Notes under the pieces: model-generated
What the model was told of the DNA's origin: nothing
The model's input: the letters and a program-made list of their open reading frames with translations, nothing else
Database searches by the model: none
Made by a program: the position numbers and the translations under genes
DNA from: a virus
Length of the DNA: 36,669 bases
Virus record (IMG/VR): IMGVR_UViG_3300032058_000130
Coordinates: 1-36,669 of that record
Reading direction: 5' to 3' (one strand)
In this document: positions 11,410 to 35,632 of the stretch, piece by piece
How positions within the stretch are numbered: position 1 is the first letter of the stretch
Layout: each line of letters begins with the position of its first letter

Positions 11410-12909
11410 ATGGCATACGCAATAGATGCTCTGGATAATCTTATCCGAGAAGAGCTTCCCTCTGTAGTTTATGAATCGCTGATTGAAATTGCGCCTGTGT
11501 ATAAGTACATCAAGCGTACCAGTATGGGCGTAAAACGAAGCGGGATTGGGCGTGGATGGGAAGTTCTCCACTTATTTGGTACCGGTGTAGCGGGGTTGAT
11601 GGGCAACGCTAACCCGGCAGGACCGGCAATGTTCGACTCGACCCGGTATCCGCAGAGCCGCGTGCTGGATTATGATACGGCAGGCAATCTGACGCCGTTT
11701 CCAGCCGCCGCTGAAGCGCCGCATCAGTACGTCCTCAAGCGGACATTGCAATTGCACAAGTCAACGGGTAACTTCTCGATTCCCATTACGTGGATGAGCG
11801 CCGATGCGTTGGATGCCTCGCAGGTAGCGCAGGTGGTGCGGGATATTAAGGCGGTCGGCGACCTTCGTGCGCAGACAGAAGCGGTTAGTTTCTTTATGGG
11901 GTCGTCCAATACCCTGTGCCGAATGGCTAATCTGAGTACTGCAGGAGCGTCCAACGGCACGTTGAAGTTTACGGTTGCACCGGGTACAGGCAGAACGGCG
12001 TTCTTCCGTGTGGGTATGATGGTGGATATCTACGCCGACAACGGGTCTGGGTCCCCGACAGGGAACCCTCGGAATGTAGTAGGCACGACCTATTGCCCGA
12101 TGATTGTCGCCGACGTGGATTACCTGTATGGCGTGATTACGATACAGGCGGTCCGTGGGACAAATATCTCCGGTATTTCGTTCACGAACGGACAGCACGT
12201 AGCGCTTCGCGGGGCCAACATCTCGCGCGAGATGAGAAGCTGGGGTCTGGAAGACTGGATTAAGAGCAGCGGCGTCATCCTCGGCGGACAGCCTGGCGAC
12301 CCGTGTTTGGATTTGGATGTGTACAGCCAGTTCAAGAGTTTGGTAGTGGACAACGTAGGTGGGCCGTTGACAGACGTTGTGATGAATCGGTATATCGGCG
12401 GGTTCCTTGATTCGTACGCGGGGAATCGGTTGGATACGATTATTACTACGATGGGGGTTACGATTCGGCACTTGGAACAGCCGCTGTCGAACACGCTGAC
12501 CGGCGCGAATGAAACGCAGTTCTACGATAGAACGGGAAAACCGCTGACTGTACAGGGCGGCTGGGACGATGTGGGCTATAGCTTTAATGGACGTAAGTTC
12601 AATTGGCTGATTAGCCCGTTGTGCATCGCAGGTCGTCTGTACGCAGTGAAGTTTGCGGGTGGCAATGTCCAGCGGTATATTCCCCCGGCGGTGGGTGGTA
12701 CAGACGCTCGTGTAGGCAATGAAGTGGAGTTTATGGCTCCGCTGGCCGGCTCCAGCAGCATTTTTATGCCGGGTCGGTCAAGCACAGGCGCGCCGCAGGA
12801 ACTGATTGAGGCGCCGTTCTGGCAGTATATTCTGGTCTGCCCTATTGATGTTCGCAGCGTCAAGCTGGCTGGGTTGTCGGAAGCGGACTTAAGCGGCGGT
12901 AATGAATAA
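11410..12909 (+). CDS. Major capsid protein
   Basis: 499 residues from ATG 11410, with AAGGAG (11397-11402) at 7 nt. It is the coat protein, presumably HK97-fold, assembling on the scaffold. The call rests on position after portal and scaffold, length, and composition: a short helical N-terminus (LIREELPSVVYESLIEIAPV), Gly/Asn/Thr-rich beta sequence, and a C-terminal segment with a LIEAPFWQYILVCPIDVRSV pattern typical of coat C-termini. No catalytic or zinc motif is present. A GC-rich hairpin follows (12949-12975) and could protect or terminate the transcript. Confidence 0.82.
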   Translation: MAYAIDALDNLIREELPSVVYESLIEIAPVYKYIKRTSMGVKRSGIGRGWEVLHLFGTGVAGLMGNANPAGPAMFDSTRYPQSRVLDYDTAGNLTPFPAAAEAPHQYVLKRTLQLHKSTGNFSIPITWMSADALDASQVAQVVRDIKAVGDLRAQTEAVSFFMGSSNTLCRMANLSTAGASNGTLKFTVAPGTGRTAFFRVGMMVDIYADNGSGSPTGNPRNVVGTTYCPMIVADVDYLYGVITIQAVRGTNISGISFTNGQHVALRGANISREMRSWGLEDWIKSSGVILGGQPGDPCLDLDVYSQFKSLVVDNVGGPLTDVVMNRYIGGFLDSYAGNRLDTIITTMGVTIRHLEQPLSNTLTGANETQFYDRTGKPLTVQGGWDDVGYSFNGRKFNWLISPLCIAGRLYAVKFAGGNVQRYIPPAVGGTDARVGNEVEFMAPLAGSSSIFMPGRSSTGAPQELIEAPFWQYILVCPIDVRSVKLAGLSEADLSGGNE

Positions 12910-12948: not shown

Positions 12949-12975
12949 GGCGGCCCGGCATAGTGTCGGGCCGCC
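12949..12975 (+). terminator. GC-rich hairpin after the capsid gene
   Basis: Perfect 9-bp stem GGCGGCCCG / CGGGCCGCC (12949-12957 with 12967-12975), loop of 9, 39 bases after the capsid stop. No T-run follows; it may attenuate or stabilise the transcript rather than end it. Confidence 0.5.
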
Positions 12976-13001
12976 TATCCCCCTATCAGAGAGGATATTG
13001 T

Positions 13002-13415
13002 ATGCTTCAATCGTGTCAGTACGACCCACATCAGCACGAAATACTCAACACCGAGTTGAGTTACTATATTAGGAAGGCAGCGCCGCCTGCGATTGCACCT
13101 CATTTGTTCGTTTATCGTCACCGCAAAGAAAATACCTTCGTTATCGCTAAATGGGTAGGCGCAGGGAGATTCGTCGATGTGATGAATCTCGATAACTCGT
13201 TAGCGAACTTCACACACCAACGCGCACAGTGGTTGTTGCAGCAGCTATGGAAACCGTTGTATCGTAGCGATGTTGCGCGTATTTTGAGGGGGAAAGAAAA
13301 CGATAGAATACGCAATACGACGGATGCAGAACGGGAAAAAGCGGGAAGATTGTTTCATCAGCGGAAAGCAAGTATTGTAGTGCCGGGAGGGCGGAAAGCG
13401 AGGATGTATGATTAA
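13002..13415 (+). CDS. Hypothetical protein after the capsid gene
   Basis: 137 residues from ATG 13002, with GAGG (12991-12994) at 7 nt; an upstream in-frame start at 12963 lies in the hairpin loop region and lacks a ribosome site. The protein is basic, with an alpha/beta first half (LFVYRHRKENTFVIAKWVG) and an Arg/Lys-rich helical second half. It overlaps the next small gene by 8 bases. Short proteins of this kind are common between capsid and tail genes of phages; function not known. Confidence 0.72.
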   Translation: MLQSCQYDPHQHEILNTELSYYIRKAAPPAIAPHLFVYRHRKENTFVIAKWVGAGRFVDVMNLDNSLANFTHQRAQWLLQQLWKPLYRSDVARILRGKENDRIRNTTDAEREKAGRLFHQRKASIVVPGGRKARMYD

Positions 13416-13548: not shown

Positions 13549-13962
13549 ATGCGCGACCTACATAGCAACGAGGATTTGATAATGGCAGGAGAAGAATTGT
13601 CGTTACCTGCAACGAAAGGAGATATAATCCGGTTGCAGGGAGAGATACGGGATATAGCGCACAACATCACGGAACTGACGCGGGCAGTCGCTGTGTTGGA
13701 GGCCAGGCCTGAGCATCCGCAGCCCTGTCGGGACTACTTACAACTCAAGCAGCAGTTTGAGCAGTTTGCCCTTACCCACAGCCCGTGCCGTGATTTGGGC
13801 GAGCATTTGGCGATGCACAAGGAGCTGATGTCGGACATCCGCCGGAATATGGTGTCGTTGGTTACAAAAGCCGCTGGGATTGCCTTAAGCGCCTACGCCG
13901 CTGGCTGGGCGATTTACGGGGCGGTCTGGATGTTGCGTCATCTGCAGGGCGGCGGAGGTTAG
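13549..13962 (+). CDS. Coiled-coil membrane protein, holin/XhlA-like candidate
   Basis: 137 residues from ATG 13549; ATG 13582 is an alternative with GAGGA at about 9 nt. A helical N-terminal half (TKGDIIRLQGEIRDIAHNIT) is followed by a Cys-containing helix and a single hydrophobic span at about residues 102-129 near the C-terminus. This layout, coiled coil then C-terminal membrane span, matches hemolysin XhlA-type holin-associated proteins, although those are usually shorter. No endolysin is visible nearby, so a role in lysis is an inference; a virion membrane anchor is the alternative. Confidence 0.62.
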   Translation: MRDLHSNEDLIMAGEELSLPATKGDIIRLQGEIRDIAHNITELTRAVAVLEARPEHPQPCRDYLQLKQQFEQFALTHSPCRDLGEHLAMHKELMSDIRRNMVSLVTKAAGIALSAYAAGWAIYGAVWMLRHLQGGGG

Positions 13963-13992
13963 CGGGTAAAGAGCGTGTTGGGGTCAAAACCA

Positions 13993-16017
13993 ATGGCAGA
14001 AAAGCGACGCTATATCGTTGATTTAGAAGACTTCAATCTTGTCTTGCCGCGTGTACAAGCGACAGGGGTTTCGATTCTGTCTATCCAGCCCGTTGTAGAA
14101 AGCTGCACCGTTGAATGCGATGCGGCGATGGTAGAAACGCTGCGTCGCATTGATGGCGTGCGTGGGGTGTTCCCCGACTTTGAAGCGGAATTGCTACTTA
14201 CGCAGGCCGTTGCAGAGGCGGAGAACGATTATTGGGCGTTGGCCAACATCTGCAACCGTGTCGGTGAATACCGGTCAATCTGCACGGGCTACGGCGTCGA
14301 TATTTGCATTATCGACACGGGGTTTAACCCGATGCACGCCGATTTTGGGCGGAACAGCGAGTGCAATACAGAGCCGATACAGCACGATATTTCAGAATTG
14401 CAACTGTCAAACAAGCCGCTGTTTGGCAATTTTTACCCATATCAGTTGCCAAACAGCGGAAACAGTTATAAAACAAACGGCTGGCCGCATTGTGTAACGG
14501 CCTATACATACAACTACCAGTTCCCTATTGTCGGTATTGACGAATACACGTGGTTGAGCAATCCGGATGCAAGAAACAATGTTGAGTTCATTGTTCATTT
14601 GGAACAAACACAGGACGTTTCCGAAAGGTTGGATGCGTTCTTTCTGGCGTTGCAAACACAGCCGGAACTCAAAAATATGTTCATACGCGGTGTTACAGGG
14701 TTCACGATAACTAATATAGTCGGCGATATCGTGGCTCCGAGCGGGTCTGTGGTGGAGCGGGTATCGACATGCAGCGTCAAATACCGCGTTGATTATGCAA
14801 AAAAAAGCGACCTTCTGCCCTATCAATCCGGCGGCGTAATGGTAGCCAGGACTTCAGTGACGGATACAATGGCGGATAGTTTTGGCGGTCGAGCAATGGT
14901 CATCCGGCCTGCATTTTTTTCTTCCAATGGTATTGTCGTAACCAACAATTATTACGCATCATATTGGTCGGCAAATGAATATTTCTCGCGTTATCGGCAC
15001 GGCCAATGCGTTGCAGGATGTGCGGCGGGGACAATGTCCGGCATTGCAAAAGGGGCGCATCTTTATTTACTGCCGACAAGAGCATCAACATCGTCTGTCG
15101 CTGTGGCGATTGAAGACGTAATCCAATTTCATCAATTCAAACTCGCACATCAGATAAATCGACCCACCGTTGCGAATATGTCTTGGACGATTACGATGGA
15201 AAAAAGACTACTTACGCCGCAGGAGCAAGAAGAAATAACACGGTATTACAGTTATATTGCTGAATTGATGGATGATTCGGGGGTTGTTTGGGTTGCCGCC
15301 GCTGGCAACAGTAAAATGCGGTTGCCGGCAGAGCAATATCTGATGTTCCCACAGCAAATCCGTCCGTCCACATCGTTAAATGCAGGCGCAATCGACATCC
15401 AGAACCGGCTGGCCTATTTCAGCAATTACGGCGCAATCGTTGATGTATTTGCGCCAGGACATCGTGTCAAGACAGCTAAAACCTATGGGATGCAACTTAA
15501 TACAGCCATTTATTTGCTAAGCCCGTCTGAAGAAGAAGAGAATTATATGTCTATCAGTGGGACATCGGTTTCGTCGCCTTATACGGTTGGCGTTGTGGCG
15601 TGCGCCTTACAGGCGGGCAGGTTTGGGATATTCGCGTCAAAGTCGCAAACGCATCAATTCCGCCAATGGTTTTTGACGCACTATACTCGAGCGTGGAATA
15701 ACGTCAAGCATTTTAACAGCGCAATTTCGTTGTCAGAAGTGCGTTCCAACCCATCGCTGCTCGATAACCCGAATAACTGGTTTGACGGTTTCCCGCCAGA
15801 CGATAACGGCAGTCCGGCGAAACTGCTTTATCTGCCGAATGCGGTGTTTGTGCGGGGTAACCATTGGGAAATCCCAGCCGTGTCGCACAGTTATGAGATG
15901 AACATTAACGGAGAACCGGCGACCGTTTATGATAACTATGTGAGCGTCAATGGCGTGTTGTACGGGTATGGGCAGACATTCAAATTGGGTAATGTTGTGT
16001 GTAAGGTTAAAAACTAA
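13993..16017 (+). CDS. Subtilisin-like serine protease (S8) with large insertion
   Basis: 674 residues from ATG 13993 (an in-frame GTG at 13975 is less likely). All subtilase signatures are present: catalytic Asp108 in IDTG, His336 in HGQCVAG, oxyanion Asn439 in AAAGNS, nucleophile Ser525 in SGTSVSSP. An N-terminal I9-like propeptide precedes them (RYIVDLEDF ... GVRGVFPDFE). In normal subtilases the Asp and His motifs are roughly 30-50 residues apart; here about 228, so roughly 180-190 residues are inserted, with a helical ERLDAFFLALQTQPELKNMF segment. The C-terminal 130 residues look like an added beta domain. There is no signal peptide, so it is likely virion-attached or acts in the cell. 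The stop overlaps the next start by one base (TAATG), tying it to the GLUG protein. Likely roles: maturation of fibre or virion proteins, or cleavage of host surface proteins. Confidence 0.93.
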   Translation: MAEKRRYIVDLEDFNLVLPRVQATGVSILSIQPVVESCTVECDAAMVETLRRIDGVRGVFPDFEAELLLTQAVAEAENDYWALANICNRVGEYRSICTGYGVDICIIDTGFNPMHADFGRNSECNTEPIQHDISELQLSNKPLFGNFYPYQLPNSGNSYKTNGWPHCVTAYTYNYQFPIVGIDEYTWLSNPDARNNVEFIVHLEQTQDVSERLDAFFLALQTQPELKNMFIRGVTGFTITNIVGDIVAPSGSVVERVSTCSVKYRVDYAKKSDLLPYQSGGVMVARTSVTDTMADSFGGRAMVIRPAFFSSNGIVVTNNYYASYWSANEYFSRYRHGQCVAGCAAGTMSGIAKGAHLYLLPTRASTSSVAVAIEDVIQFHQFKLAHQINRPTVANMSWTITMEKRLLTPQEQEEITRYYSYIAELMDDSGVVWVAAAGNSKMRLPAEQYLMFPQQIRPSTSLNAGAIDIQNRLAYFSNYGAIVDVFAPGHRVKTAKTYGMQLNTAIYLLSPSEEEENYMSISGTSVSSPYTVGVVACALQAGRFGIFASKSQTHQFRQWFLTHYTRAWNNVKHFNSAISLSEVRSNPSLLDNPNNWFDGFPPDDNGSPAKLLYLPNAVFVRGNHWEIPAVSHSYEMNINGEPATVYDNYVSVNGVLYGYGQTFKLGNVVCKVKN

Positions 16018-17471
16018 TGCCTATTGTAGAAATGGGGTCAACGATGGAAGTGCGATATTTATTCGAGCTTGTCCAGATTGAAACGACAGGACGAGCGGAA
16101 ACGTATGTCTTGAAGAACGAGATTGACGCCTCGGCTACAATGCAGGCGGCTCCGGCGTGGGCGGCGTCCACTGTCTATGAAAAGTGGGAGGTTGTCCGCA
16201 CGGGCGGCAGCATCTATCAGTGCAAGCAGGCGCACACGTCGGGCGCATCGTTTGAAAGCGACAATTGGATACTCGTGCGGGCGGAAGTGCCGTTGTACAG
16301 TAATGCTTCGACCTACGCGGTCGGCGATGTCGTACGGTACCCGACCACAACGCCCGACGGCGTGTACCAGTGTAAAGTGGAGATTACCGCCGGCGAGGAG
16401 TGGAACTCCGCAAAGTGGGTCAAGATTGCCAATCTTGGCTCTACGATGCCTAACGGATATGTGGGCGTCTGCAGCACGTCGGGGGCGGCCTTTATCGGTA
16501 CGCTGGACGGCGGCGGTTATACGATTAGGCATTTATACCAGTGGTCGAATACGACAGAACAACACGGACTGTTTGGGTATTTAGGCGAAAACGGCGTGGT
16601 GCGAAACTTGTATTTTGCCAACGGTTGCCTGTACCGCTTTGGGACTGGGGGTATAACGGGGACCACGGGTTTGGTGGCGGCGAATTTTGTGACTCCGAGT
16701 TTTAAGCCAATTACAATACAAAACGTTCACGCCATTGACTGCTTATTGCAGGGTGGCAACAGAGTTGGGTCTTTTGTCGGAGAAGCAAATAGCTGTTTCA
16801 GGATATCAATCCAAGAGTGTTCGTCCAACGCCATCGTAAAATCGAATTCGTCGTTTGTAACGGGCGCTTTTGTCGGTGGTCTTGTTGGTAGCGGTGTTGT
16901 TGGTTATAAACCTTACGGTACCGGAATAAAGAGATGTTTGTTTAACGGGTCTTTGTACGGCAATTCGTCAACGAAAGCGCATGTGGGTGGGCTGTATGGC
17001 GGTTTTAGTGCTACTACTTCAGCCATATGCGCCGAGGATTGTATCTTTTCAGGCAGTATAACCGGCTCGGTGGTAAAAGCAGGTGGGATTGCGGCTACGG
17101 CGTTAAGCCAAGACGGGAATTATTACATTAAAGCCTGCCTGAACACGGGGACTATATCTCTGGCGGCGGGAACAAAATACGGGATAAATGAGAACATCGG
17201 CTATGTCGAGAACTGCTATTACGATACGCAGACCACCGGATGCACTGATAGGCCAACGCAGCAGCGCACGACAGAGCAAATGAAAAAACGGAGCTTTCTG
17301 GTCGGGCTGGATTTTGACAGGATATGGTATCTGCCAAAATCGCCTGTTATCGCAAGCCCGTTTAACGGCGGTTATCCCATCCAGCGACATTGGATAGACA
17401 TTCAGTCCTCCGGCGTATCCGGCGGCAGTAATATGCGTGGCGCTGCGTCGCTACTGGGGTTTGGATTATGA
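16017..17471 (+). CDS. Putative fibre or adhesion protein with carbohydrate-binding and GLUG-like repeats
   Basis: 484 residues from ATG 16017, sharing one base with the protease stop. Two short repeats at about residues 46-88 and 92-135 share the pattern STVYxxGxVV..GxIYQCK..HTSG..xxxxW, like the chitin-binding (CBM5/12) type fold. From about residue 145 comes a beta-helix-like region with GLUG motif features: GTLDGGGYTIRHLY, HGLFGYLGENGVVRNLYF, then VGGLVGSGV and VGGLYGGFSA. GLUG repeats occur in bacterial surface proteins and adhesins. Tail end unrecognised. A receptor-binding or tail-fibre protein is most likely; it may also be a substrate of the coupled protease. Confidence 0.75.
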   Translation: MPIVEMGSTMEVRYLFELVQIETTGRAETYVLKNEIDASATMQAAPAWAASTVYEKWEVVRTGGSIYQCKQAHTSGASFESDNWILVRAEVPLYSNASTYAVGDVVRYPTTTPDGVYQCKVEITAGEEWNSAKWVKIANLGSTMPNGYVGVCSTSGAAFIGTLDGGGYTIRHLYQWSNTTEQHGLFGYLGENGVVRNLYFANGCLYRFGTGGITGTTGLVAANFVTPSFKPITIQNVHAIDCLLQGGNRVGSFVGEANSCFRISIQECSSNAIVKSNSSFVTGAFVGGLVGSGVVGYKPYGTGIKRCLFNGSLYGNSSTKAHVGGLYGGFSATTSAICAEDCIFSGSITGSVVKAGGIAATALSQDGNYYIKACLNTGTISLAAGTKYGINENIGYVENCYYDTQTTGCTDRPTQQRTTEQMKKRSFLVGLDFDRIWYLPKSPVIASPFNGGYPIQRHWIDIQSSGVSGGSNMRGAASLLGFGL

Positions 17472-17887: not shown

Positions 17888-18811
17888 ATGCCGCTGTCTG
17901 ACTACAACGTATCGCGGCTGTTTCTCTACCGCGCGGTACAGGAAGCGCGTACGAATATCGACGAGCCGGGGGTCAGCGCCAAGTACACGGACGCTATGCT
18001 TCTGGATAAGATACAACAGGCGTACACGATGGTACTGGGAGAACTGCGCCGCAATGCGCAATCTCCGGTTGTTATTCCATTCCCTGTAACACTGGAAGCG
18101 GGGAAACACGAATACCCCCTCCCCTACCATATTGCAGGCGTCCACTCCGTGTTCGAGGAAGACAACTTCAAGGGACGTTTGTTCTGGCACAGCCGCAGCC
18201 GGTACAGCCCCTACGGACCCGGTGTACGGATAGAGGGGACGACGCTCATTGTCCCGAACCCAGACGAACTGGCCGGCACCGAGCTTACGGTGGAGTGTCT
18301 TCCAGGAGGCGCGGCTACCTTCCACATCGGAACGTTCAGTAGTACGGCTGTATCTGAAGACCGCAAGACGATAACCCTGCCGCAACAGCACACCCTGTTA
18401 TTGGGGGCGTTGGATACCCGTCGTCACGCCTATATCGGCTCGCTTATCCGTGTCGTAGGGTCGGATGGGTACAGCGGAATGGAAGAACACCTTATTGTCG
18501 CCTACAATCGCGATACACGACAGGCCACCCTCCAGACGCCCATTGACAACGCGCCGCTGGGCGGCCCGAACAATGCGCTCTATGAGATAGCCCCGCTTAT
18601 CTACATTGGACTTGACCACGTCGTCGGCCTCTACGTAGCGCGCTGGATAGCGGGAATCGAGGGCCACACCTCCCGCGCACGAGAGCTGGCTCGGATGTAT
18701 GCCGATGGGATGCGCGTCGTGCGCCTGAACGCATTCTATTCCCGAGTGGACGAATCCCTGAAAGTACGAGGCGATACACACGACCGCAGACGTTATATGA
18801 CAAGGGGATAA
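17888..18811 (+). CDS. Putative head-tail adaptor (tail tubular A-like) protein
   Basis: 307 residues from ATG 17888, with GAGG about 6 nt upstream. The N-terminus has a helix pair (YTDAMLLDKIQQAYTMVLGE) in the style of head-completion and adaptor proteins that bind beneath the portal. A beta middle follows (YPLPYHIAGVHSVFEEDNF), and a C-terminal helix (YVARWIAGIEGHTSRARELA) such as closes T7 gp11-type and related adaptors. This order (terminase, portal, capsid, adaptor, nozzle) fits a short-tailed phage. The assignment rests on layout and pattern, not on a diagnostic motif. Confidence 0.6.
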   Translation: MPLSDYNVSRLFLYRAVQEARTNIDEPGVSAKYTDAMLLDKIQQAYTMVLGELRRNAQSPVVIPFPVTLEAGKHEYPLPYHIAGVHSVFEEDNFKGRLFWHSRSRYSPYGPGVRIEGTTLIVPNPDELAGTELTVECLPGGAATFHIGTFSSTAVSEDRKTITLPQQHTLLLGALDTRRHAYIGSLIRVVGSDGYSGMEEHLIVAYNRDTRQATLQTPIDNAPLGGPNNALYEIAPLIYIGLDHVVGLYVARWIAGIEGHTSRARELARMYADGMRVVRLNAFYSRVDESLKVRGDTHDRRRYMTRG

Positions 18812-18814
18812 CCA

Positions 18815-20617
18815 ATGGCGCAGCAATTCACCCAGAGCGGGCATAACGTTCGGTATATCCCTACCACCCCGCCTACCGGCGATTACCACAGTGCACCGGC
18901 AGGAAACCGCGGACTGCGACTGCGCCCGCTGACTGGAGCTGGAGCCGCAGTACGTCCGATCGTGGTTCCAGATATGGTTCAGCAGGCAGATGCAGGTATG
19001 GACACAACGTTCCTCTACGCCAAAAGTCCAGACGGGCAAATACAAGGGATGTTGGGGTATATAGACGACCTGTCGTTTGGGGACATCGCCTCGAAGTTTG
19101 CGGCGCTGATTCCGCAGATGAACCCCTTTGACGGCCTCCCCCAAATGCCTATCCCCGCGCTGACGATACCAAAATACAGAGGCACCCCGGCTCCTGTTGC
19201 ACCCGCTATACCATCTGGAACCACGGGCGGTGGAAGCACGCCTTCATCGGATTTCTCGTCGTATTATCAATCGCCGTCGTCCACACAGGGGGGTATCCAG
19301 ACCTCTACAGAGCTGCCGTCGTTTCCGCCTTCAAGTAGTGAGCCGAGCGGCGATAGCAGCAGCAGTAGTGAAGTTGTATATCGTTGTTGGAAGAAATATG
19401 TGTTTGCAAATACCTGGTGCGGGAGCCCTCCTTATTATCTGGAATCGCACCTATGCTTACCAGAGGGTGTATTGCCGGGTGGAACGGGCGATACGTGCAT
19501 ACCCCATACTCATTGTGGAATGTCGTCCAAGTGGGTATTGATGCCGGATACGTATCCGACCGCCGGCGCTTGCTACACGGAATGTAGGAGCGCGTTCTGG
19601 GAGTGTTGGGAGAATAACAAGTACAACGCCGAAGATAGGGATTGTAGTGGTACCCCTTATTATACAGAAAGACGGTGCGTGCCGCAGGGTAATTGGGGTT
19701 ATGTTTATTATCCAACGCCTGCTGCGTGCTGTCGTCCAGTTGGAGAACCGGGGTTGGTTAGTTATTATGAAAGAGAGGAATTGGTTTATACAACACTATA
19801 TACTTCCTATAGCGCATGTACAGATGATTGTGAGGAATCAAGTTCGCCCTCATCCTCAGAACCTCCGTCATCCGATGGTTTTCAGTCTTCTTCTTTGACT
19901 TCTTCGTCGTCGTCATCCTCGTCATCATCGAGTTCTTCCTCCTCCTCGTCATCATCGTCGTCTTCATCGAGTAGTAGTAGTAGTAGCAGTAGTAGTAGTA
20001 GCAGCAGCAGCAGTGTTGGAGTAGCGAACCCGTGTCCTATTTTGGTTGCAACGCCACGTTCGGCTACAGTTACGCCGAGCGGTGTTTTATATTGTGACGC
20101 GTGTGGCGGTCCTGGATGTGTACATAACTACTCAGATTTCTATGACATAAATGGGGTGAGTGTGCATTGTCCATATAACAGCTCGTCGCAATGTACGTGG
20201 GGGTACACGTTTCCTCCAGACCTTGAAGCGGACCTTATTCTATATCGAGTAAAGAATATGTACTCAGAATCCCCATGTGTTGGAAGCTCTTATGGTAGGG
20301 CCGAATGGTGGGGGCATCCTCCCTATGGGTATGTATCTGTGTCTTCTGTGTTTTCTGGCGGTGTCTATAAGTTAATGCTGGGTGCAACGTACTTTCGTAA
20401 TACAGTTCCGCCTTTAGAAGTTCCGTCTTTCGGTGTATCTGGAGAAGTTGAAACAAGCGCAACAGGTATCTTTGATATTCGTGGGAAATCTTATACTCTC
20501 CCTGTCTATCCAGGTGGTAGTTGTGCTGGTTTCTGTGTGACAGAAGGGGGCGGTTGTGCCAACTGGATAGGCGAGTGTTTGAATGAGGCGTCGCTTACTG
20601 TTACGTTTTCGCGTTAG
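18815..20617 (+). CDS. Cysteine-rich virion protein with 38-serine linker
   Basis: 600 residues from ATG 18815, with AAGGGG (18802-18807) at 7 nt. Layout: N-terminal 120 residues of ordinary phage-like sequence; Pro/Ser/Thr-rich linker to about 190; a cysteine-rich domain about 190-340 with repeated WxxCW and CYTEC features; a polyserine run of 38 consecutive Ser (codons 19901-20014); a second Cys-rich beta domain to the end. Serine codons mix all six types. From about 19380 the DNA is more AT-rich than the N-terminal part, suggesting that the C-terminal part was acquired. Two copies of the 14-bp motif lie within the first 140 codons. The next genes are glycan-modifying enzymes, so the serine stretch may be glycosylated; that is inference. 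Probably an exposed fibre or decoration protein. Confidence 0.78.
   Translation: MAQQFTQSGHNVRYIPTTPPTGDYHSAPAGNRGLRLRPLTGAGAAVRPIVVPDMVQQADAGMDTTFLYAKSPDGQIQGMLGYIDDLSFGDIASKFAALIPQMNPFDGLPQMPIPALTIPKYRGTPAPVAPAIPSGTTGGGSTPSSDFSSYYQSPSSTQGGIQTSTELPSFPPSSSEPSGDSSSSSEVVYRCWKKYVFANTWCGSPPYYLESHLCLPEGVLPGGTGDTCIPHTHCGMSSKWVLMPDTYPTAGACYTECRSAFWECWENNKYNAEDRDCSGTPYYTERRCVPQGNWGYVYYPTPAACCRPVGEPGLVSYYEREELVYTTLYTSYSACTDDCEESSSPSSSEPPSSDGFQSSSLTSSSSSSSSSSSSSSSSSSSSSSSSSSSSSSSSSSSSSSVGVANPCPILVATPRSATVTPSGVLYCDACGGPGCVHNYSDFYDINGVSVHCPYNSSSQCTWGYTFPPDLEADLILYRVKNMYSESPCVGSSYGRAEWWGHPPYGYVSVSSVFSGGVYKLMLGATYFRNTVPPLEVPSFGVSGEVETSATGIFDIRGKSYTLPVYPGGSCAGFCVTEGGGCANWIGECLNEASLTVTFSR
18960..18973 (-). 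repeat. Dispersed 14-bp motif, copy 5 (one mismatch)
   Basis: ATCTGGAACCACGA on the - strand, inside the N-terminal coding part of the Ser/Cys-rich gene, reading through VVPD. Confidence 0.7.
19213..19226 (+). repeat. Dispersed 14-bp motif, copy 6
   Basis: Exact ATCTGGAACCACGG inside the Ser/Cys-rich gene, translated as SGTTG. Confidence 0.85.
19901..20014 (+). repeat. Serine-codon tract, 38 codons
   Basis: 114 bases of uninterrupted serine codons. The first 23 are TCN apart from one AGT; the last 15 are AGT or AGC. Adjacent units differ, so the tract is not a clean trinucleotide repeat, which argues for selection at the protein level. Confidence 0.9.
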
Positions 20618-20980: not shown

Positions 20981-22174
20981 ATGCAGAAGACAGAAGAGCC
21001 GTTGGTAACGATTATCATCAACACGGATGGGCGGTGCCCCAACTTGTTGGAAGAAGCGTTGTGGTGCGCGCTGAATCAGACGTATAAGAATATACGGGTA
21101 CATGTTGTATGTACGCATCCTGATGGCGTGCGGTTGGCGATACCGGATGCACGGGTGCGTATTTTCAACGTGGAGCCGTTTCCCAGATTTCCGTACCAAT
21201 TGCTGTGGTCGGTGGAACAGATACAAGAGGGGTTGTGGTGTACGTTGGATTCGGATGACCTTATTTTTCCGCATCACGTAGAAACAATGGTTAAAGCCGC
21301 CTTGCCCGTGATAGATAGAGAACAGTTATGGGAAAAGGACGGGTGGTGCGTGCGCAGCGCGTATGCGATGGCGGCAGCCAAGAATACGCCGATACAGGAG
21401 TTCTCCCCGAGCTGGGTACGCTGCTTATATACGCCGCTAACCAACGCACAGAGGGAGTTTTTGCGGGGGTATATACTGCGACTCTTAAGCAATGGTTCGT
21501 TTGATGTGCATATTAAAAACACATTCCGAGAATATAAAGGGGCCAACATGATGTGGCCGCCTACCTATGTGTACCGGCTTGGGTTGTCTTACCACATCAG
21601 TCGGGAATATCTGCGAAATCCGAGCGCTGTTGTGCCAGAGCGTTTGGAGCCGTTTCGACCGTGTATTCGGGTTGACTTTGGAGAGATACACCGGATATAT
21701 ACGACATATTGCACGCATAGGAAGGGGTGGTCGTTGGAGCGGCGTGAATGGATGCGATTGCTGAAGTGGGCGCATAAAATGGGGATACAACGTCTCTGTG
21801 AGTTCGGGTCTGGATTAACTACTATATTGCTGGACACCGTCGGGCGATTGGCGGTCAGTTACGAAACATCGCCGATATGGAAAAAACATACAGAAGAATG
21901 GATGCAGAAGACGGGTATCGTACAGCTATGGGATGGAATAGACGTACCCAACTTATCGCCCTATGATGCGGTGTTTATCGACGGACCGCGGGGGGGTAGA
22001 AATCGGCGGCCTGTTTATGCGGCAGTGGGACAAAGAGGCCCCTACTATGTGATAGCGCACGATGCACAGCGAAGCCCAGATTGTGACTATATCAAAACGT
22101 ATCTGCTTCCGTACTATACGGTAAGGAAAACATCTGGACAACTGTTGTTATTAACGAGAAAGATACAGCGATGA
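20981..22174 (+). CDS. Glycosyltransferase (GT2-like) fused to a class I methyltransferase-like domain
   Basis: 397 residues from ATG 20981. The N-terminal part (about 1-110) has the family 2 GT-A pattern: PLVTIIINTDGRCPNLLEEA, LNQTYKNIRVHVVC, and CTLDSDD with the metal-binding DSDD at residues 90-93. The middle is unassigned. The C-terminal part (about 260-397) resembles a SAM-dependent methyltransferase: CEFGSGLTT (273-281), VSYETSP and YDAVFIDGPRGGR (328-340). A GT-A domain transfers a sugar from a nucleotide sugar; the second domain could methylate the glycan. It overlaps the next gene by 4 bases (ATGA) and follows the Ser-rich virion gene with one small gene between. Confidence 0.75.
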   Translation: MQKTEEPLVTIIINTDGRCPNLLEEALWCALNQTYKNIRVHVVCTHPDGVRLAIPDARVRIFNVEPFPRFPYQLLWSVEQIQEGLWCTLDSDDLIFPHHVETMVKAALPVIDREQLWEKDGWCVRSAYAMAAAKNTPIQEFSPSWVRCLYTPLTNAQREFLRGYILRLLSNGSFDVHIKNTFREYKGANMMWPPTYVYRLGLSYHISREYLRNPSAVVPERLEPFRPCIRVDFGEIHRIYTTYCTHRKGWSLERREWMRLLKWAHKMGIQRLCEFGSGLTTILLDTVGRLAVSYETSPIWKKHTEEWMQKTGIVQLWDGIDVPNLSPYDAVFIDGPRGGRNRRPVYAAVGQRGPYYVIAHDAQRSPDCDYIKTYLLPYYTVRKTSGQLLLLTRKIQR

Positions 22175-22995
22175 TGACACATCCTGCAAAACAAGTAGAA
22201 CCGCTATTTACGCGACCCGGGGGAACTCCAGCGGGGCTGGACAATCTGTTTTTGGGGAAGGCGGCAGTGCTGATATGCAACGGGCCAAGCGCCGAGCAGG
22301 TGGACCCTTACTTGTTGGATAAGCCGGGTTTTGTGACGATGGGGATTAACAACGGGTCGCACATCATAAGGCCGAATCTATGGTGCGCGCAGGATTCGCC
22401 GACAAAGTTTATGGCATCGATATGGGAAGACCCCAAGATTATGAAGTTTACACGGAAGTCGTATAATAAGGCCGCTTATACGCCCGAAGATGTTCAACCG
22501 ACGCGATGGGTCAGAGATTGCCCGAATCTTTTTTTCCATCGCATTAACTCGCACACAGAAGCGCACGATTGGTTCGACCGCACCTCGATTAGTTGGGGGA
22601 TACCGGATGGAAAAGGAGGGCACCGTGTTTCCACGTTTATGTGCGCGATGTGCGTACTATACCGATTAGGCATACGAGAGATTGCAATTATAGGAGCCGA
22701 TTTTCGTATGACCAAAGAACAGCCGTATTTCTTTGAGGAAAACAAATCCGATAGCGGCATAGCATCCAATAACGAGTTGTATCGCCTTATGAATGCATTT
22801 TGCGCGCAGTTGTATCCTATAATGCTCAGCAAAGGATTACAGGTTGTAAACTGCACTCCTAACAGCGGCTTGACTGCGTTTCCTACAATGCCGTTTGAGG
22901 AATGGGTGGCCCGTCACGCGTTGTCGATTGAGGAATCTACAGAAGGGATGTATAATAGACCGATGCATAAACAACCGAATGAAGTAAAGAGGTAG
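22171..22995 (+). CDS. MptE-like / sialyltransferase-like protein of the glycan cassette
   Basis: 274 residues from ATG 22171, overlapping the previous stop (ATGATGA). It shows AVLICNGPSAEQVD near residue 32, GINNG, IIGADFRM in the middle and VNCTPNSGLTAF near the end. This set (NGPS, IIGxDF, NxTPxSxL) is typical of the DUF115 / 6-hydroxymethylpterin pyrophosphokinase MptE-like fold and of bacterial CST-II type sialyltransferases, which it resembles. Phages often carry such genes beside glycosyltransferases. Substrate unknown. Confidence 0.68.
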   Translation: MMTHPAKQVEPLFTRPGGTPAGLDNLFLGKAAVLICNGPSAEQVDPYLLDKPGFVTMGINNGSHIIRPNLWCAQDSPTKFMASIWEDPKIMKFTRKSYNKAAYTPEDVQPTRWVRDCPNLFFHRINSHTEAHDWFDRTSISWGIPDGKGGHRVSTFMCAMCVLYRLGIREIAIIGADFRMTKEQPYFFEENKSDSGIASNNELYRLMNAFCAQLYPIMLSKGLQVVNCTPNSGLTAFPTMPFEEWVARHALSIEESTEGMYNRPMHKQPNEVKR

Positions 22996-33363: not shown

Positions 33364-33559
33364 AGGCGACCTCGGCAGCTTGATGTACGGCTTTCGCCGC
33401 CGCCTGTCGCCGCCGCTCTGTCCGCTCTTTGTCCCTGCAATACCGACACACGGGGTCACGATATGGGTATTTCTTGTTCGTTTGGCGGAAGTAATTGTTG
33501 CTCGGATATTGCGTCCCGCATCTGCGGCATATCTTAATAGGTTTCAGTTCGATTGCCAT
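33350..33559 (-). CDS. Small zinc-knuckle protein
   Basis: 69 residues, start ATG at 33559 with GAGG about 7 nt upstream on the - strand. Two CxxC pairs (CRRCG and CRYC, about 27 residues apart) are followed by a strongly basic helix (RDKERTERRRQAAAKA). The pattern matches the treble-clef end of HNH/endonuclease VII-like proteins, without catalytic histidines. It overlaps the methyltransferase gene by 26 bases and ends inside the end of the + strand operon. Confidence 0.72.
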   Translation of the reverse strand: MAIELKPIKICRRCGTQYPSNNYFRQTNKKYPYRDPVCRYCRDKERTERRRQAAAKAVHQAAEVASTSA

Positions 33560-34553
33560 TTATAACCTCGCTTTCTCGACGATAGGTTTCTATCCGATGA
33601 TTTGCCAACTCCACATAGGCGGGGTTCAACTCTATCCCGAAGAACCTTCGCTTAAGACGGAGGGCAGCCACTGCTGTCGTCCCGCTTCCGATGAACGGGT
33701 CTAATACAATCCCCAGCAACGCGCGGCTACCCGCTTTAATGCACAACTCAACTAATTCCTCAGGGAACGTTGCAAAGTGCGCTCCTTTGTAAGGCCGCGG
33801 TGCAATCGTCCATACCGACCGTCTGCGCCTCAGTTTTGTCCCGTCCTCCGCTACCAGCGGCCACCGTTCATGTCCCCGGCTATGCGCTCCATGCCCATTC
33901 TGTCCGTTCGGTAAATAACAATGTGCGTTTGCATACTTGACGCTTCCCTTCATCTTGGTATCCTGCCTGCCGTCATAGGACGCTTCTTCCGCTAATGCCT
34001 CCCAATCAAAGTAGTAGTATGGCCTCTTTGACAGCAGGAATACATATTCGTGCGCCTTTGTACATCTATCTCTGATACTTTCCGGCATTGGATTGGGTTT
34101 GTGCCATATGATATCCTGTCGCAAATACCAGCCGTCGGCCTGCAACGCAAACGCCACCCGCCACGGAATGCCGGCAAGGTCTTTGTCCTTAAGTAAAGGA
34201 TGGCCCCGCAAATCAGGTCGGTTATTTTCGATAGGTTCCCCTCGATGTTTGCCGCTTAGCGTTTGCGCGGAGGATGAGTACCGTCCTTTGGCCGACACGT
34301 AGCTGTCGCCAAGATTGAGCCACAATGTGCCGTCGTCCCGCAGTACGCGCCGCACTTCACGAAAGACTTGTACCATCTTGTCCACATATTCTTCCGGCGT
34401 CTTTTCAAGGCCGATTTGGCCATCCACCTTGTAATCCCGCAAGCCCCAATACGGAGGGCTGGTAACGCACATACACATACACGCATTAGGCAGTTCCCGC
34501 AACACCGTCAACGCATCGCCGCATACAATCGTATTGCTTCTGTTTTCGCTCAT
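33534..34553 (-). CDS. DNA methyltransferase (TSPPYW type)
   Basis: 339 residues from ATG at 34553. A beta-class amino-methyltransferase: catalytic motif IV TSPPYWGLRDY at residues 31-41 and SAM-binding motif I DPFIGSGTT at 285-293, with motif X-type GIELNP after it. The order IV ... I identifies the beta group, which methylates N4 of cytosine or N6 of adenine; TSPPYW often goes with N4-cytosine or CcrM-like enzymes. No cognate endonuclease is seen. Likely protects phage DNA from host restriction or acts in regulation. Five bases separate it from the next methyltransferase gene. Confidence 0.93.
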   Translation of the reverse strand: MSENRSNTIVCGDALTVLRELPNACMCMCVTSPPYWGLRDYKVDGQIGLEKTPEEYVDKMVQVFREVRRVLRDDGTLWLNLGDSYVSAKGRYSSSAQTLSGKHRGEPIENNRPDLRGHPLLKDKDLAGIPWRVAFALQADGWYLRQDIIWHKPNPMPESIRDRCTKAHEYVFLLSKRPYYYFDWEALAEEASYDGRQDTKMKGSVKYANAHCYLPNGQNGHGAHSRGHERWPLVAEDGTKLRRRRSVWTIAPRPYKGAHFATFPEELVELCIKAGSRALLGIVLDPFIGSGTTAVAALRLKRRFFGIELNPAYVELANHRIETYRRESEVINGNRTETY

Positions 34554-34558
34554 TGCAA

Positions 34559-35632
34559 CTATTCCCTTATTTTTCTGCTATGCTGTATTCGCGCTTCTGC
34601 TATACGTATATACGTAGCGTCCAGTTCGACGCCTATAAACCGAAATCCTTCCAACATACAGGCCTTGCCCGTGGTTCCAGAACCCATAAAAGGGTCAAGC
34701 ACTATACCGTTGGGCGGCGTGATGAGGCGACATAGATAGCGCATCAAGTCGGTGGGCTTTACCGTCGGGTGATTATTTGTGCGATGCTCTCCGTCAGCCC
34801 CGCCAAGCCCTTCGTTTCTATCCTGTTGGTTGGCCTTAGCACAGTAAAAAAATCGAGCCGCTGAACCTTCGCTGGCGGGGACATCGGCATACCGTTTTGC
34901 TCTGTATTTGCCGTAAATGCCGTGATTGTGCATATACCCATCCGCGCCGCCTATCCGATAGTTGGAACTTCGGGTACCGCTTCGCTGATACGGAAACAGC
35001 GATACTGCTTCATCGCTTCCGTCGTGTATGAGATTAGCCGGCCAGCGACCGATACTTTCGTAATACTGTGTATCGCTGCCCCTGCCTTCCGGCCCTCCGG
35101 CAAACGTCCCAGCCGGAGCGTGATGCGCCAGCATAGATTCGGTTCCTACCTTACACGCTTTGATATTCAGCGCGCCAGTGCCGTAGTGCGATAGGTTCTC
35201 GATAACGGTACCTTCCAGCGGCTTGCGCGCCAAACAGATAGGCTCACACGCCGGTTTCAGCGCAGTTCCCCATCCGTCCCATTTTTCGGCAAATCGTCCC
35301 GCGTTCAGGGATTTTGGAAAGCCGCTCCCGTACACCCACATTATCGTATCGCGTATCTCCCATCCTGCGTCTTCGATAGCGCATACAAGCCGATGGTACG
35401 TGCGCGTCCCTCCGAACGCCAACAGATGTGCGCCTGGCTTTGCGACCCGCAGTATCTCTTTCCAGAAATGTTCACCGGGTACCCCCCTATCCCAGTCTTT
35501 TCCCATAAACGTCAGCCCATACGGCGGGTCGGTAACAACGCTATCGACGCTGTCTGCCGCCAGTGTCGGCAATATCTCCAAACAATCCCCTTCGTATATG
35601 CGATAGTCATTATTCGGCTCCACTTGACTCAT
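34559..35632 (-). CDS. DNA methyltransferase (DPPY type)
   Basis: 357 residues from ATG at 35632, overlapping the stop of the upstream gene (ATGA). Catalytic motif IV TDPPYGL at residues 34-40, the HPTVKPTDLMRYL segment and motif I DPFMGSGTTGK at 313-323 show a beta-class DNA amino-methyltransferase; DPPY favours N6-adenine. A large central insertion (residues about 150-270) may hold target recognition. It differs clearly from the neighbouring enzyme, so the pair is not a recent duplication. Confidence 0.93.
   Translation of the reverse strand: MSQVEPNNDYRIYEGDCLEILPTLAADSVDSVVTDPPYGLTFMGKDWDRGVPGEHFWKEILRVAKPGAHLLAFGGTRTYHRLVCAIEDAGWEIRDTIMWVYGSGFPKSLNAGRFAEKWDGWGTALKPACEPICLARKPLEGTVIENLSHYGTGALNIKACKVGTESMLAHHAPAGTFAGGPEGRGSDTQYYESIGRWPANLIHDGSDEAVSLFPYQRSGTRSSNYRIGGADGYMHNHGIYGKYRAKRYADVPASEGSAARFFYCAKANQQDRNEGLGGADGEHRTNNHPTVKPTDLMRYLCRLITPPNGIVLDPFMGSGTTGKACMLEGFRFIGVELDATYIRIAEARIQHSRKIRE
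34669..34682 (-). repeat. Dispersed 14-bp motif, copy 9 (one mismatch)
   Basis: TTCTGGAACCACGG on the - strand, in the methyltransferase gene. It encodes part of the conserved GSGTTG motif, so selection on the protein may explain it. Confidence 0.55.

Follow-up and report, generated by a model that had tools for sequence, protein, structure and literature searches.

How does a subtilisin-like protease come to lie among the structural genes of a virus, and what does the long segment that separates the first two of its catalytic residues contribute? The locus is part of a 36,669-base virus record in IMG/VR (the window, meaning the whole stretch of DNA analyzed), the main genes of which lie at approximately 4.4 to 33.4 kb on the plus strand. 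A preliminary sequence-only reading had interpreted the gene product as a specialized virion protease. By analogy with other phage subtilases, its product would most probably be an accessory protease, either virion-borne or released late, to which a putative docking domain has been added.

A viral subtilase with an intact catalytic core

The subtilase gene occupies positions 13993-16017 on the plus strand and encodes 674 amino acids from the ATG at 13993, or 680 amino acids from an alternative GTG at 13975, with the stop codon ending at 16017. The sequence-only reading had recognized a full catalytic set, and all 4 residues were found at exactly the named positions in the expected motifs, namely Asp108 (IIDTG), His336 (HGQCVAG), Asn439 (AAAGNS), and Ser525 (SGTSVSSP); each is invariant in an alignment of 54 subtilases. 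The Pfam family Peptidase_S8 (PF00082) matched residues 100-558 with an E-value of 8.2e-27 and a score of 94.7 bits, compared with a curated cutoff of 21.8. Because this match is far above the cutoff and runs as a single stretch across the insert, the S8 assignment is not due to chance. A second profile match, to the PHROG family phrog_3677 (“protease”), starts just before His and extends onward. The best sequence matches among solved structures were enzymes of the proteinase K-like S8A group (aqualysin I, E-value 1e-7, with Meiothermus keratinase and a VPR-type cold-adapted proteinase at up to 6e-7), which share the catalytic fold and residues; unlike these enzymes, the window protein is encoded in a virus gene block and has no signal peptide evident by eye at its N terminus. 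Judged by motif order, profile score, and predicted core fold, the product is thus an S8 subtilase. Tripeptidyl peptidase II was absent among the matches listed in searches of PDB sequences and with the structure model, which has no bearing on membership. No close relative of the whole protein was found in IMG/VR, and a DNA-pattern search with its odd His motif (HGQCVAGC) gave 2 matches (L187 and L188), both outside any subtilase frame.

Modeling of the protein as a single sequence was uninformative (mean pLDDT of 34), and the 54-row alignment was used instead. In the alignment-based model, residues 1-60 have pLDDT values of 84-94 and the strand and helix order of an inhibitor I9-like domain, and most of the catalytic core is confidently predicted (about 90, with blocks up to 93). 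The model matched unautoprocessed pro-subtilisin E (3whi_B) with a Z-score of 32.9 at 2.9 Å over 323 residues (VIA; model range 3-617), and subtilases including pro-enzymes with Z-scores of 29-33, those of the proteinase K type being near 31. The N-terminal region (13993..14202, residues 1-70) can thus be assigned as a putative propeptide from its pLDDT, its strand and helix order, and its alignment with pro-subtilisin E. No Pfam model matched these 70 residues at E-values up to 5, and the propeptide of the sequence-only reading was supported by the predicted fold and by a joint alignment of this region and the catalytic part with pro-enzymes that are still uncleaved.

The catalytic domain is divided into an N-terminal part (14203..14346, residues 71-118) containing Asp108 (codon 14314-14316), delimited by motif, Pfam match, and alignment, and a remainder (14884..15697) containing His336, Asn439, and Ser525, for which the model was also used. 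It is followed by a C-terminal tail with the stop codon (15698..16017, residues about 569-674, placed from the model), of which the final 60 residues are beta-rich at low to middling confidence and the last 85 had no Pfam match. Between the 2 parts of the catalytic domain, the insert would leave the core at a surface loop after the Asp strand and re-enter before the His helix, and because of this geometry the triad could close. In the model, therefore, propeptide and subtilisin-type core are kept and the insert is looped out, the point for which the sequence-only reading had proposed a structure prediction.

Large segments between Asp and His

The inserted segment (14347..14883, residues about 119-297) was delimited from the 54-subtilase alignment and by pLDDT values mostly below 50 (residues 121-209, 220-249, 251-299, and 305-325), and is confined to the loop following the Asp strand. 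The typical layout of the family is HPEF, approximately 8-11 residues, SR or GR, approximately 30-40 residues, and then His; the window protein reads HADF, ending at residue 118, and resumes with GGR at residue 300, 36 residues ahead of His336. An insertion of approximately 190 residues had been proposed; the insertion is real, but its net size from the alignment is slightly smaller, at about 170-180 residues. A frameshift or annotation error as the source of the long spacing was rejected, because the frame is open throughout, a single Pfam match spans it, and the third-position G+C content of the insert (0.539) resembles that of the whole gene (0.527).

As the sequence-only reading had suggested, the insert was searched for alone, and no relative was found: it matched no Pfam family at E-values up to 5, one chance-level stretch in phage records (E-value 0.9), a single PDB sequence at 0.81 with nothing below that value, and nothing in IMG/VR by exact 8-residue patterns. 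At the sensitivity of these searches, the segment is an orphan, and nothing connects it with a binding fold. The alignment-based model leaves it unmodeled, so that no new fold is claimed for it.

To place the spacing in context, we collected at least 80 viral loci (L099-L178) using as query an alignment of the window protein with 2 phage-collection subtilases. A script read 79 proteins from 80 loci (L106 gave none), in 2 of which the pattern found no Asp motif. Among the 77 viral subtilases thus obtained from the matches listed, the median Asp-His spacing is 51 residues, compared with 228 in the window protein, which confirms the abnormal distance first noticed in the sequence; 73 of the 77 have spacings of 31-69, and the proteinase K-like viral rows among the matches listed have spacings of 31-44. 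Read one by one, 7 isolate phages gave 59, 59, 101, 82, 50, 51, and 72 residues, and the Atu_ph07 protease about 48 (by eye). The remaining 4 records among the matches listed, representing 2 distinct proteins found in 2 records each, have spacings of 175 and 281 residues, so that the spacing of the window protein is rare but not unique. In these proteins, as in the window protein, an intact core is combined with a big Asp-His segment, measuring 135 residues in L115/L116 and 244 residues in L157/L160. The insert of L115 uses the same loop as that of the window protein, and the one in L157 the following loop. A limited search of the open literature, confined to titles and abstract openings, returned no paper on a phage subtilase in which Asp and His are separated by a large insert.

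No significant similarity was detected among the 3 inserts (window, L115, and L157), and on a quick maximum-likelihood tree built with insert columns removed, the inserts require 3 changes; a common origin for all of them is accordingly not favored. Such plug-ins thus appear, from sequence comparison, to recur in phage subtilases. The same analysis set the window protein, which is at most 30% identical to any tree row, outside a clade of marine tail subtilases (59 rows, 99% SH-aLRT), on a very long branch of unsure placement.

The most direct comparison is provided by a pair of near-sister subtilases, one with the insert (L115, 9140-11131) and one without (L139, 6288-7880). Identity between the 2 proteins is 81% on the N-terminal side of the insert and 73% on its C-terminal side, and the neighboring genes share 71% and 82% identity. 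At the sequence level, an entire segment has thus been cleanly gained or lost while the rest of the gene was conserved.

Among cellular subtilases, large inserts between Asp and His occur in pyrolysin and in tripeptidyl peptidase II. Pyrolysin is described as having large insertions (PMC12838322), whereas in CspB a jellyroll of some 130 residues is inserted, which makes the enzyme more rigid and assists autoprocessing (PMC3567191). In CspB and pyrolysin, as in the window protein, whole segments interrupt a normal subtilase core; unlike the latter, they are cellular enzymes. Core-interrupting domains are hence already known from cellular subtilases, and the window enzyme is an unusual variant of this arrangement. 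The CspB precedent also lends itself to a reading in which the insert stabilizes the enzyme or helps its folding and has no targeting role, with the protease possibly still on the virion. Because L139 lacks the segment, the insert is not needed for core folding in the L115/L139 pair, and the absence of an Asp-His insert from so close a relative leaves a purely stabilizing function as a rather unlikely, if sensible, explanation.

The subtilase lies in an exchangeable gene slot

The genomic context of the gene was assessed in a set of 85 related records found with terminase, capsid, and tail queries; counts of homologs below refer to loci rather than records, some loci overlapping on one record. 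The gene at 11410..12909 on the plus strand, which follows portal-like and scaffold-like genes and is conserved in 65 related loci, probably encodes the major capsid protein, although it had no Pfam or PHROG match. Downstream of it, a conserved small gene (12963..13415, plus strand) with homologs in 20 related loci bounds the slot on the left, and a gene for an SU10-type adaptor (17888..18811, plus strand; SU10_adaptor, E-value 0.0019, under the cutoff) with homologs in 18 related loci bounds it on the right. Within the window, the slot contains a small hydrophobic-stretch protein, the subtilase, a protein with carbohydrate-binding module 5/12 (CBM5/12), and one further small gene. The first of these (13549..13962, plus strand) encodes, judging from its translation, a coiled-coil-like product that has a single hydrophobic stretch close to its C terminus, and had no convincing family match. 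The downstream partner gene (16017..17471, plus strand; CBM_5_12, E-value 2e-9) begins with an ATG that overlaps the subtilase stop codon by one base (TAATG). Its product contains CBM5/12 as 2 stretches, followed by a repeat-rich part; the repeats, which had no Pfam match, resemble GLUG motifs. No tail-fiber family match was found beside the window subtilase, the neighbors being the CBM5/12 protein and then the adaptor-like gene.

Homologs of both the 12963 and 17888 genes are present in 7 loci, none of which has a subtilase between them. The slot has no room for another gene in 4 of the 7 (L016, L023, L065, and L067; the small gene of L023 is known by tblastn only) and is filled by other genes in the remaining 3 (L011, L018, and L063). 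In L011, a protein with an F5/8-type-C (discoidin-like) domain (14694-15161) is encoded in the same slot as the window subtilase. In L005, L007, and L016, further variable genes, some of them beta-helix-like by eye, separate the capsid gene from the small gene. Because lineage-conserved genes flank a slot that other loci leave empty or fill differently, the subtilase is, on the evidence of gene content and order, accessory cargo; the exchangeable slot that it occupies, with the capsid gene on one side and the adaptor gene on the other, is used for surface-binding proteins.

No PF00082 match was found in any of the 85 related records (0 of 6, 0 of 50, and 0 of 29), a result that is strong only for the 24 records of at least 30 kb, the other 61 being shorter. 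With no subtilase in these records, the gene appears dispensable in the lineage and, as far as such comparison goes, does not belong to the core virion genes of these phages. A prohead (head-maturation) protease of the lineage was rejected on the same count: relatives whose portal, scaffold-like, and capsid genes are homologous have no subtilase among these records, and the enzyme is therefore not the general head-maturation protease of the lineage. The notion of a specialized virion protease was accordingly sustained in part, in that an active-type subtilase with a looped-out insert is encoded in the structural block; its standing as a core virion gene was not.

The same gene order bears on whether the protease may instead act inside the infected cell, processing neighboring virion proteins (carbohydrate-binding or serine-rich) rather than a host target. 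Its position in the structural block next to candidate substrates and the lack of an evident N-terminal signal peptide agree with such a role, but with general head maturation excluded, the enzyme would serve lineage-specific appendage proteins only, and we regard intracellular processing as improbable.

Several other features of the lineage deserve mention. The capsid gene of L179 (9532-10995), 52% identical to that of the window, lies on a short contig in a metagenome-assembled genome labeled Egibacter. This is the only hint at a host and does not fix it, because a binning error is possible. In the window, the region at 18815-20617 encodes a serine-only tract of about 50 residues between cysteine-rich parts, with an array of serine-codon repeats at 19904-20004. 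A Glycosyltransferase-2-like gene (E-value 0.0053, under the cutoff) and, after it, a gene with homologs in 2 related loci lie at 20981-22995, inside the structural block. Two adjoining N6/N4 DNA methyltransferase genes are located on the minus strand at 33534-35632, facing the structural block.

Subtilases in the tail regions of other phages

The sequence-only reading had placed subtilases outside the standard make-up of a capsid-tail module. In this form, that view was not supported: in phage contigs from metagenomes and in isolated cyanophages, they often adjoin baseplate or tail-fiber genes. We sampled the immediate, same-strand neighbors of 90-900 amino acids in 52 of 62 non-redundant phage subtilase loci (80 of 157 collected genes), leaving out loci judged by eye to be cellular proteinase K-like. 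Among the matches listed, 14 of the 80 neighbors belong to phrog_677 (a baseplate-wedge/tail-fiber connector), 13 to the tail-fiber family phrog_9729, and 11 to another tail-fiber family, with some overlap between families. One phage subtilase used as a tblastn query matched 48 phage records, mostly from Synechococcus and Prochlorococcus phages, and a library of predicted structures of viral proteins returned phage subtilases from the same groups. The subtilase gene lies between baseplate genes in S-H38 and S-CREM1 and between tail-fiber genes in P-SSM2, where it carries the note “T4-GC: 292; contains PF00082 domain”; the depositors of S-SCSM1 named its fused subtilase protein “baseplate wedge subunit (virion protein).” Homologs lacking the insert, which the sequence-only reading had regarded as adverse if found at non-virion loci, are plentiful, but lie mostly in tail-gene loci.

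The S-SCSM1 virion comprised 45 proteins by mass spectrometry, according to PMC9602691; the accessible parts of that report and of PMC9964418, PMC10665884, and PMC6102473 name no subtilase among the detected virion proteins. Sullivan 2010 (PMC3037559) mentions an S8 peptidase as well as a virion proteome. Subtilases are frequent yet little studied in phage tail regions.

The cyanophage and marine tail subtilases (T4-GC_292; P-SSM2 PSSM2_297, S-H38, S-CREM1, and S-SCSM1_228) are, like the window protein, phage pro-subtilases encoded in virion blocks, occasionally with domain insertions. The window protein differs from them in its low identity, its apparent position outside their clade, its phage lineage, its gene slot, and its insert. 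The analogy is weakened because the tree sets the window protein, though on a long and uncertain branch, outside that clade.

The company that subtilases keep in other phages, together with the capsid-adaptor position of the window gene and its overlap with the carbohydrate-binding gene, also makes it doubtful that the product is an off-particle lysis-time or free extracellular enzyme, released at burst to degrade debris, matrix, or competing proteins, even though the small product encoded just upstream has a hydrophobic stretch, another small protein with such a stretch follows the 12963-type gene in L179, and no endolysin family match was obtained among the proteins scanned.

A possible role for the protease and its insert

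The explanation we favor, at a little under an even chance, is that the window encodes a particle-borne pro-subtilase, carried as slot cargo, that trims a host-surface or matrix protein at adsorption with the insert serving to dock it. We infer the activity, virion location, substrate, and docking from the features described above, the particle location resting on analogy with tail subtilases and the docking being a guess. The gene would have been acquired as accessory cargo into a slot that in the lineage is otherwise empty or holds other surface-binding or sugar-binding proteins. Late in infection, a serine protease of the proteinase K/subtilisin type would be produced as a pro-enzyme, in which the I9-like propeptide, judging from its fold, may aid folding and block the enzyme until self-cleavage. 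Carried on the particle next to the downstream carbohydrate-binding protein, with which it would be co-expressed, the protease could trim proteins of the host surface or matrix as the phage adsorbs, and the insert would dock the enzyme either to the particle or to the substrate. The adjacent small hydrophobic-stretch gene could equally suggest a role in lysis.

More speculatively, the Asp-His loop might be a recurrent plug-in site at which phages swap docking modules to retarget a particle-borne protease, much as they do tail-fiber tips; the window insert would then be a previously unseen module, and the enzyme would be the proteolytic analog of tailspike depolymerases. We consider this broader proposal tentative and distinctly less probable than the particle-borne protease itself. 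Should the insert prove to be a docking module, it would show how a phage particle aims a broad protease, and the L115/L139 pair would offer a natural comparison with and without such a module.

Additional domains also occur elsewhere in phage subtilases, some of which have lectin-like, cupredoxin-like, or esterase-like fusion partners. In Synechococcus phage S-MbCM7 (L183, 2335-5259), a 974-residue protein combines a subtilase with esterase-like and cupredoxin-like parts, both recognized by weak Pfam matches. In L161 (450-2528), a cupredoxin-like domain (Copper-bind, E-value 0.0028, under the cutoff) is inserted before Asp, and relatives of this domain are found as C-terminal subtilase repeats in L101, L103, L109, L123, L163, and others.
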